This document shows, piece by piece, positions 15,729-17,929 of a DNA stretch of 64,000 nucleotides. The position numbers and the translations under genes were made by a program. How positions within the stretch are numbered: the stretch's first letter is position 1; each line of letters opens with the position of its first letter. Below the pieces are notes generated by a model that saw nothing but the letters and a program-made list of their open reading frames with translations, searched no databases and was not told the origin of the DNA. The DNA is from Micromonospora sp. CB01531 (lineage in GTDB: Bacteria; Actinomycetota; Actinomycetes; Mycobacteriales; Micromonosporaceae): NCBI RefSeq assembly GCF_001905095.1, contig NZ_LWLS01000079.1:1-64000 (forward strand), given 5' to 3'.

Positions 15729-15837
15729 CGCGGGACAACCTACCCGCCGGGGACGGCCGCGAAGCCAAGATCCGCGCGGCCGGTCCGCGGCGGCGATCGG
15801 CTTCCCGGGGGCCGCCCGGGCGCGTAGAGTGATCGCC

Positions 15838-15897
15838 ATGCCCGCGCTCCTGTCCTGCTGGTGGCCCGCCGACCCGGCGGCCCACCCCCGCGCGTAG
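15838..15897 (+). CDS. trp-type leader peptide with tandem Trp codons
   Basis: A 19-codon ORF reads MPALLSCWWPADPAAHPRA, with adjacent TGG codons at 15859-15864. It ends 94 bases before the TrpE-TrpG-like gene. Trp is the rarest residue, so two in a row in a short upstream ORF is the classic attenuation signature; a trp attenuator on trpE is known in Streptomyces venezuelae. Stalling of the ribosome at these codons would sense charged tRNA-Trp. The sequence just before the ATG (gtagagtgatcgcc) has only a weak GAG-type site. Confidence 0.75.
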   Translation: MPALLSCWWPADPAAHPRA

Positions 15898-15930
15898 CTT
15901 TCCCACGCGGCCGCCCGACGAGGCGGCCGC
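15860..15930 (+). promoter_or_regulatory. Transcription attenuator of the trp-type operon
   Basis: Two stems are visible. The first (15860-15871 with 15875-15886; 12 bp, one mismatch) overlaps the Trp codons. The second (GCGGCCGCC at 15907-15915 with GGCGGCCGC at 15922-15930, 6-base loop) is a terminator-like hairpin followed by cggtctctcc. Ribosome stalling at Trp codons would melt the first stem. Which segment forms the antiterminator cannot be fixed by eye. Confidence 0.65.
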
Positions 15931-15991
15931 CGGTCTCTCCCCGGCATCCCGGGTCGCCCCGCAGGCGGCCACCGGCCCACGAGGAGACCCG

Positions 15992-17929
15992 ATGATCCGC
16001 CCGCACGACCCGCTCGCCGCCGTCGCCGCCGGCCTCGACCCCGGCCCGTTCGCGCTCGTCCGCCGCGCGGGCGCCGACCATCTCGACCTGTTCACCGGCA
16101 TGGTACGCACCGCCGAGCGGCTCGCCGACATCCCGCTGCCCGACGGCGGTCCCGGACCGCGCACGCTGGCCCTGGTCCCCTACCGGCAGATCACCGAACG
16201 GGGGTTCGCCTGCGTCGACGACGGGATGCCGCTGGAGTGCCTGGTCATCGGGGAGCACCGGCAGATCTCCCTGGCCGACGCGCTGGCCGCGCTGCCGGAC
16301 GCCCCGGTGGTCACCACCGACGCCGGCTTCGACAGCTCCGATGCCGAGTACGCGGCCACGGTCGGCCGGGTGCTCGCCGAGGAGATCGGCCGCGGCGAGG
16401 GCGCGAACTTCGTCATCCACCGCACCCTGCGGGCCACCGTGCAGGGCGACGCCCGGGCGGCGGCCCTGGCCGCGCTGCGCCGGCTGTTGCTGCGCGAACG
16501 CGGCGCGTACTGGACGTTCGTCGTGCACACCGGCACCCGGACCCTGGTCGGGGCGAGCCCGGAACGGCACGTCAGCGTGGACGACGGTCTGGTCATGATG
16601 AACCCGATCAGCGGCACGTTCCGGCACACCGGCGCGGCGGCGGACCGGGAGGCCCTGCTGCGTTTCCTCCACGACCCGAAGGAGGTCGAGGAGCTGTACA
16701 TGGTGCTCGACGAGGAGCTGAAGATGATGGCCACCGTCGCCGAGCACGGCGGGCAGGTGGTCGGGCCGTACCTCAAGGAGATGGCTCACCTGGCACACAC
16801 CGAGTACCTGCTGGCCGGACGGGGTTCCCGCGACGTCCGGGAGGTGCTGCGGGAGACCATGTTTGCGCCCACGGTCACCGGCAGCCCGATGGAGAACGCG
16901 TGCCGGGTGATCGCCCGGCACGAGCGGACCGGCCGCCGCTACTACGCCGGGGTGCTCGCCCTGCTCGGCCGGGACGCCGCGGGCCGGCAGACCCTCGACG
17001 CGCCCATCCTGATCCGCACCGCGGAGCTCTCCCCCACCGGCGAGCTGCGGGTGCCGGTCGGCGCGACGCTGGTCCGGCACTCCACCGCCGCCGGTGAGGT
17101 GGCCGAGACCCACGCCAAGGCAGCTGGGGTGCTCGCCGCGCTCGGCCTCGGCCCCGACGCGCCGGCGGCCCGCCCGGCTCAGTCCGGCCCGGACGCGCCG
17201 GGCCGCGCGCTCGCCGACGACCCCGAGGTGCGCGCCGCCCTCGCCGCCCGCAACGCGCCGCTGGCCCGGTTCTGGCTGGACCAGCGGACCCCCGGGGCAA
17301 CGGTCCTGCCCGGGCTGGCCGGCCGGCGGGCGCTGATCGTGGACGGCGAGGACACCTTCACCGGCATGCTCGCCCACCAGCTCGGCGCCCTCGGCCTGGC
17401 CGTGGCGCGCCGCGGCTGGCAGCAACCCGGTCCGGTCGGGGAGTACGACCTGGTGGTGATGGGCCCGGGCCCGGGCGACCCGACCGACCTCGCCGAGCCG
17501 AAAATGGCGACGATGCGGGCGCTGCTGGCAGAGCTCCTGGCCGCGGGCCGGCCGACCCTCGCCGTCTGCCTCGGACACCAGCTCCTGGCCGGGCTGCTCG
17601 GGCTGCCGCTGCACCGGCGGGACGCGCCGTACCAGGGGGTGCCGCGGGACGTGCCGGTGTTCGGCGCCACCCGCCGGGTCGGCTTCTACTCCAGCTTCAC
17701 CGCCCGGGCCGGCGCGGACCGGGTCGCCACGCCGTACGGCCCCGTCGAGCTGTCCCGGGACCCGGCCGACGGAGCGGTACACGCGCTGCGCGGGCCCGGC
17801 TTCGCCGGCGTGCAGTTCCACCCGGAGTCGGTACTGAGCCGCGACGGCATGGTCATCCTCGCCGAACTGCTCGCGCATCTGCTCGACCATCGCGCGCTCG
17901 CCGGGCATGCGCCGGCCGACCGGGGGTAG
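15992..17929 (+). CDS. Fused anthranilate synthase-type enzyme (TrpE-TrpG / PhzE-like)
   Basis: 645 aa. The chorismate-binding domain spans about residues 1-400 (FVIHRTLRATVQGD, MMNPISGTFRHTG, HDPKEVEELYMVLDEELKMM, HTEYLLAG, RETMFAPTVTGSPMENACR). The glutamine amidotransferase domain spans about 440-640, with Cys526 in AVCLGHQLLAG and His610-Pro-Glu612 in FHPES. The fusion order and motifs match both bacterial TrpEG and PhzE (2-amino-2-deoxyisochorismate synthase). The Trp-Trp attenuator upstream argues for anthranilate and tryptophan. No phenazine or other trp genes are adjacent. A terminator follows the stop. Confidence 0.85.
   Translation: MIRPHDPLAAVAAGLDPGPFALVRRAGADHLDLFTGMVRTAERLADIPLPDGGPGPRTLALVPYRQITERGFACVDDGMPLECLVIGEHRQISLADALAALPDAPVVTTDAGFDSSDAEYAATVGRVLAEEIGRGEGANFVIHRTLRATVQGDARAAALAALRRLLLRERGAYWTFVVHTGTRTLVGASPERHVSVDDGLVMMNPISGTFRHTGAAADREALLRFLHDPKEVEELYMVLDEELKMMATVAEHGGQVVGPYLKEMAHLAHTEYLLAGRGSRDVREVLRETMFAPTVTGSPMENACRVIARHERTGRRYYAGVLALLGRDAAGRQTLDAPILIRTAELSPTGELRVPVGATLVRHSTAAGEVAETHAKAAGVLAALGLGPDAPAARPAQSGPDAPGRALADDPEVRAALAARNAPLARFWLDQRTPGATVLPGLAGRRALIVDGEDTFTGMLAHQLGALGLAVARRGWQQPGPVGEYDLVVMGPGPGDPTDLAEPKMATMRALLAELLAAGRPTLAVCLGHQLLAGLLGLPLHRRDAPYQGVPRDVPVFGATRRVGFYSSFTARAGADRVATPYGPVELSRDPADGAVHALRGPGFAGVQFHPESVLSRDGMVILAELLAHLLDHRALAGHAPADRG

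Follow-up and report, generated by a model that had tools for sequence, protein, structure and literature searches.

A candidate ribosome-mediated tryptophan attenuator, of a type known from Streptomyces, precedes a fused trpEG gene in Micromonospora

The 64,000-nucleotide stretch of Micromonospora sp. CB01531 DNA analysed here (the window) carries, at 15992..17929 of the forward strand, a gene for a 645-residue protein that fuses a PhzE-like chorismate-binding part to a glutamine amidotransferase. The locus raises two linked questions: which product this enzyme makes, and whether a small tryptophan-containing open reading frame upstream controls its expression. The protein itself is ambiguous. 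Pfam recognizes chorismate-binding and class-I glutamine amidotransferase domains, and among solved structures it lies closest to 3r74 (E 3.5e-178), tabulated as anthranilate/para-aminobenzoate synthase component I and presumably a Burkholderia PhzE; no curated NCBIfam cut-off was reached among the matches listed (25 families). According to PMC5958127, protein sequence alone does not tell TrpEG from phenazine-type PhzE. The neighbouring genes encode an FGGY sugar kinase and a flavodoxin-like/NADPH-dependent FMN reductase, in agreement with the initial annotation, which had remarked that no trp genes lie close by. The nearest relatives of the gene are from Micromonospora, and its product, which is roughly 55-60% identical to Streptomyces copies, groups with those of leader-bearing genes.

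The leader open reading frame, trpL, occupies 15838..15897 on the same strand, as read from the window sequence and from relatives: the ATG lies at 15838, the 19 codons specify MPALLSCWWPADPAAHPRA, and the TAG stop is at 15895-15897. Tandem Trp codons, TGG TGG, at 15859..15864 form segment 1 of the putative attenuator and are invariant in 52 aligned leaders, while both the number of Trp codons (two or three) and the position of the stop vary among leaders at large. The promoter is represented by a -10 box, TAGAGT, at 15825..15830 (+), 7 nt from the first base of the leader ATG. All 121 leaders have a TANNNT box, and the gap from its end to the start codon is 6-8 nt (7 nt in 73, 6 nt in 47 and 8 nt in one); an earlier, smaller set gave a spacing of 6-7 nt in 74 of 74. 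The leader search itself demanded a TANNNT box within 16 nt and gave preference to the spacing observed; small tandem-Trp reading frames elsewhere in the same loci were therefore used as a reverse check, and just 1 of 214 has a box at 6-7 nt. Given this spacing, the control, and the mapped start of the Streptomyces lividans trpL1 leader MFAHSTRNWWWTAHPAAH, which is leaderless according to PMC8079986, the trpL transcript very probably starts at or beside the leader ATG and would itself be leaderless.

Downstream of the Trp codons lie the segments expected of competing RNA helices. The 1:2 hairpin, GGUGG-C-CCGCCG/CGGCGG-C-CCACC at 15860..15886 (+), folds at about -20.6 kcal/mol within 36 nt and takes in the Trp codons; the initial annotation had described a leader, with adjacent Trp codons, that overlaps one stem. 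Across the 121 leaders the mean energy is -17.1 kcal/mol against -13.3 for shuffles, a modest gap, and 82.6% of shuffled 36-nt 1:2 stretches fold below -10 kcal/mol. Segment 2 (GGCGGCC, 15876..15882, +) can pair with the flank of segment 1 or with segment 3 (GCGGCCGCC, 15907..15915, +), of which 15909-15915 is the antiterminator partner. Segment 3 also forms the 5' arm of the terminator hairpin, GCGGCCGCC-CGACGA-GGCGGCCGC (15907-15930), and segment 4 (GGCGGCCGC, 15922..15930, +) forms its 3' arm, followed by the weak tail CGGTCTCTC. The terminator is a perfect 9-bp GC stem; the antiterminator pairs GGCGGCC with GGCCGCC and competes with both 1:2 and 3:4. Of the perfect terminator-like hairpin noted at the outset, the stem thus stands, and what it lacks is a real U-run. 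The antiterminator, with segment 2 pairing either to segment 1 or to segment 3, was absent from that description. A plain fold of the 155-nt leader returns one long structure (z -2.7), which is misleading because it ignores the ribosome, and the tests were accordingly made segment by segment. Of the 121 leaders, 96.7% have a terminator stem of at least 7 bp, compared with 19.3% of dinucleotide shuffles, and 99 have such a stem together with an antiterminator of at least 7 bp, compared with 1.4% of shuffles; in four leaders of family f7 a strict scan finds no terminator of this kind. The window leader thus contains an antiterminator (2:3) and a terminator (3:4) that exclude one another, as is characteristic of a ribosome-mediated trp attenuator.

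The helix alignment comprised 52 of the 117 terminator-bearing leaders, picked by hand for diversity, and its shuffle controls do not correct for kinship among loci. In the 3:4 helix 97.0% of cells are paired, with 40 double-changed cells against 8.5 in shuffles; in the 2:3 helix 94.2% are paired, with 7 double-changed cells against 2.1. Co-variation support for 2:3 is thin because that helix is almost invariant. One position changes across segments 2, 3 and 4 together, reading C-G-C in 88 leaders and T-A-T in 6, and this three-segment change is the best single evidence for competing helices. The same position reads C-A-T in 11 of the 117 leaders, where the 2:3 helix is shortened by one pair or more to 6 bp or less, and C-G-T in 6; there are five odd cases, and one locus (L161) was skipped. 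The stop codon precedes segment 2 in 30 of 117 leaders, and these keep the segment all the same, so that its conservation is that of RNA and not of peptide.

The spacer between segments 2 and 3 holds a further conserved element, at 15892..15908 (+). CGCG, often as CGCGCGTA, occurs in 114 of 117 such spacers against 23% of shuffles. In the window GCGU (15892-15895) can pair with ACGC (15905-15908), lengthening the 2:3 antiterminator; this extension does not fully account for the degree of CGCG conservation. The spacer CGCG (15889-15895 and 15905-15908 in the window) is kept whether it is translated or not.

Taken as a combined pattern (TGGTGG, then GGCGGCC, then GGCCGCC-loop-GGCGGCC), the element is specific. 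It matches once in the strain's own 9.24-Mb genome, where the reversed control gives 0, and 12 times, in 11 genomes, among 396 genomes of the phylum, for which the reversed controls give 0 among the matches listed. Eleven of the 12 matches precede TrpEG-type genes. The remaining one lies before a tryptophanyl-tRNA synthetase gene, trpS, named from its sequence and by comparison with S. lividans trpL2-trpS, and its leader ends in LWWAA. General-purpose searches were less informative: an Rfam search of the region gave three matches, all far below the gathering score, and a consensus promoter/terminator scan found nothing there, since actinobacterial promoters and U-less terminators lie outside its models.

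The initial annotation had proposed conservation of the leader in relatives as a check, and the survey bears it out. A small upstream reading frame with at least two Trp codons precedes the gene in 73 of 80 relatives, and a tandem-Trp leader in 74 of 81 when the window is included. To the 80 relatives were added 90 loci, 30 best matches and 60 picked by hand (second copies and thinly sampled families), and the removal of four duplicates (L100, L101, L102 and L107) took 170 loci to 166. Among these 166 distinct TrpEG/PhzE loci, 121 have the leader, 32 adjoin phzD and lack the leader, and 13 have neither, proportions that are not population frequencies, the added loci not being a random draw. 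Leader-bearing loci span Micromonosporaceae, Frankia-type and other actinomycetes. In a FastTree tree of the 166 proteins the phzD-adjacent copies form one group, reached by one label change, and the window gene falls in sets made solely of leader-bearing genes.

Several loci depart from the common arrangement. In Dactylosporangium vinaceum (L046) a further leader was found farther upstream of TrpEG because the gene has an N-terminal extension, long and repetitive, which places some 130 codons between the attenuator and the conserved TrpEG start. L030/L100 and L163 carry degenerate leaders (VIARMSSWRPATVAAHFFRA, MFARRGLWRAVILAAVSTRA), with an Arg codon where the second Trp codon stood and the terminator still visible. 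The 13 loci with neither feature comprise L030, L163, the long-branched L133 and L157, eight of family f7, and L141, whose 142 nt of upstream sequence are too little to judge by. The eight f7 loci (L168, L169, L171, L172, L173, L174, L177 and L178) show by eye a TANNNT box ahead of TrpEG itself, at about 6-8 nt from its start codon, as if the gene had become leaderless when the attenuator was lost. With about eight TrpEG genes of this family lacking it, the leader is dispensable in some lineages.

This distribution bears directly on the choice between anthranilate and phenazine. No locus among the 166 has both the leader and an adjoining PhzD-like isochorismatase gene: the leader is found at 0 of the 32 phzD-adjacent loci and phzD at 0 of the 121 leader-bearing ones, a split whose Fisher value is not an independent-sample probability, the loci being related. 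Ashenafi 2008, by its title (as cited in PMC3111181), reports the Streptomyces venezuelae relative to be "an anthranilate synthase, not an ... ADIC synthase". From these two lines of evidence the earlier suggestion that the leader helps to decide for anthranilate holds up, and the leader would mark the window gene as an anthranilate-type TrpEG and not a phenazine PhzE. That the gene instead encodes a phenazine-type ADIC synthase of a secondary pathway, preceded by a chance reading frame, is very unlikely. The match to 3r74 and the lack of any NCBIfam assignment among the matches listed are what such an enzyme might give; yet the leader is missing from every one of the 32 phzD-adjacent copies, and these group apart from the window gene, which keeps company with leader-bearing Micromonospora genes, and the leader is far beyond chance by the genome pattern, by its recurrence at 121 of 166 loci and by the 1-in-214 control. 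No PhzD match was found within 2.5 kb on either side of the window gene, and for want of such a neighbour a phenazine role, though considered, was rejected.

The genome, in which the window lies on contig 79, also encodes a canonical TrpE with an LLES stretch, which we take to be the Trp-feedback motif, as well as a PabB-like gene. The canonical TrpE lies on contig 46 (L001 2997-1444, minus strand), and its ATG overlaps an upstream hisI-like reading frame. A leader was looked for before this gene and none was found, so that, of the two enzymes, the one subject to attenuation would be the orphan TrpEG instead of the TrpE adjoining hisI. A leaderless-W scan of the genome's two trpS genes likewise found no leader.

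The classical parts are thus present and conserved: leader reading frame, tandem Trp codons, 1:2 hairpin, 2:3 antiterminator and 3:4 terminator. The tryptophan-controlled attenuation first predicted for this locus gains support from this full set, and in all likelihood the element acts by ribosome-mediated transcription attenuation, monitoring charged tRNA-Trp to control the monocistronic fused anthranilate synthase gene trpEG. RNA polymerase would begin at the leader AUG or right beside it, and the leaderless 5' end would take up a ribosome. When charged tRNA-Trp is scarce, the ribosome would stall on the tandem UGG codons and mask segment 1, leaving segment 2 free to pair with segment 3, a pairing that the CGCG spacer helix would assist; with 2:3 formed there would be no terminator and trpEG would be transcribed. 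When tRNA-Trp is charged, the ribosome would proceed over segment 2, or release and let 1:2 form; the 3:4 helix would form and transcription end. For this strain we infer stalling, termination and anthranilate as the product from sequence. The E. coli trp attenuator follows the same 1:2, 2:3, 3:4 logic with tandem UGG codons, and its leader has the stop codon between segments 1 and 2; the window leader differs in its probably leaderless start and in a stop codon 3' of segment 2, as in 87 of 117 leaders.

The point at which the window departs from the textbook is the U-run. None of 27 Micromonospora/Salinispora leaders has four or more T residues in the 8 nt after the stem, against 52 of 90 others, and the window hairpin, with its tail CGGTCTCTC, has none to speak of. 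The U-run was not treated as essential, as it varies among otherwise alike leaders of Streptomyces and other genera; because of its absence, what is claimed is a variant that would work like a ribosome-mediated trp attenuator, and the release step in Micromonospora and Salinispora may need help or be partly translational. A candidate for such help is a helix between GGUCUCU (15932..15938, +) and GGAGACC, the Shine-Dalgarno stretch of trpEG (15983..15989, +). Tail:Shine-Dalgarno helices of at least 6 Watson-Crick pairs occur in 41 of 100 leaders against 14% of shuffled tails, the 17 of 117 leaders with no detected Shine-Dalgarno site having been left out of these tests. By statistics that ignore kinship of the loci, matched pairs exceed swapped ones in Micromonospora/Salinispora (26 loci, p 0.007) and in Frankia types (9 loci, p 0.010) and do not exceed them in the Streptomyces type (30 loci, p 0.49). 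As an extra element the Shine-Dalgarno-covering helix is therefore suggestive only, weakly and partly supported by these comparisons.

Given a hairpin without a U-run, the leader could be translated and Trp-sensing and yet act mainly at translation, with 15932-15938 covering 15983-15989, or through Rho-dependent termination. The weak post-stem tails of Micromonospora and Salinispora would suit either route, and the excess of tail:Shine-Dalgarno helices, with its matched pairs in these genera and in Frankia types, would suit the first. We nevertheless think these routes unlikely as the main mode of action, since the 3:4 stem is perfect and co-varies strongly, beyond the needs of a Shine-Dalgarno lid, and the matched-pair excess, uncontrolled for kinship, does not extend to the Streptomyces type. 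A compound scheme is conceivable though improbable, in which the Micromonosporaceae and Frankia types use a two-layer switch: a leaderless leader started by 70S ribosomes, a U-less terminator and a tail lid on the trpEG ribosome-binding site would together place a second anthranilate synthase, a backup for the canonical TrpE, under Trp control at the levels of transcription and translation alike. There is hardly any likelihood that the short reading frame goes untranslated and that the hairpins are ordinary GC-rich structure or a riboswitch bound by a protein or small molecule. High GC does make strong folds common, as the shuffled 1:2 stretches attest; against this reading, TGGTGG and an in-frame start with its -10 box are kept while flanking codons vary, Trp codon number and stop position shift as in a reading frame, and 121 of 166 loci have a small Trp-rich leader in this position.

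The preferred reading, transcription attenuation by a translating ribosome, has close precedents. The trpL1-trpE locus of S. lividans TK24 has, according to PMC8079986, a leaderless leader peptide, hairpins and a monocistronic anthranilate synthase gene, as well as a uridine-enriched stretch that the window hairpin lacks. The window locus likewise has a leader reading frame that is leaderless by its -10 spacing and a fused TrpEG orthologue downstream, although its leader has two Trp codons in a 19-residue peptide of different sequence; leaders of the S. lividans type, WWWTAHPAAH, also precede TrpEG genes among the relatives examined. Also in Streptomyces, a genus other than that of the window, the trpEG gene of S. 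venezuelae is cited as an anthranilate synthase gene whose Trp attenuator was studied by experiment (Lin, Paradkar & Vining 1998, as cited in PMC1262725 and PMC4833913). The trp attenuators that Seliverstov et al. 2005 (PMC1262725) described in actinobacteria share with the window double or triple UGG codons and a complementary triple, gGCC-rGCy-GGCC, common to antiterminator and terminator; as far as the sections available show, they come from Corynebacterium and Streptomyces trp operons and have poly-U tails, unlike the window, and the Micromonosporaceae, Frankia and Kutzneria types fall outside that coverage. A search by title and abstract, with most subscription papers outside its coverage, found no description of a Trp leader or attenuator in Micromonospora or Salinispora.

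The window element represents, in Micromonospora, a switch previously described in Streptomyces; it is classical in type and well conserved. Its recognition extends the known range of a sparsely sampled regulatory element to many actinomycetes that produce antibiotics, and the set of leaders is well suited to define a new Rfam family and provides natural material for the study of attenuation started by leaderless translation. The leader also offers a simple sequence test that would separate primary-metabolism TrpEG from phenazine-type PhzE, and TrpEG released from Trp control would feed anthranilate-derived products.
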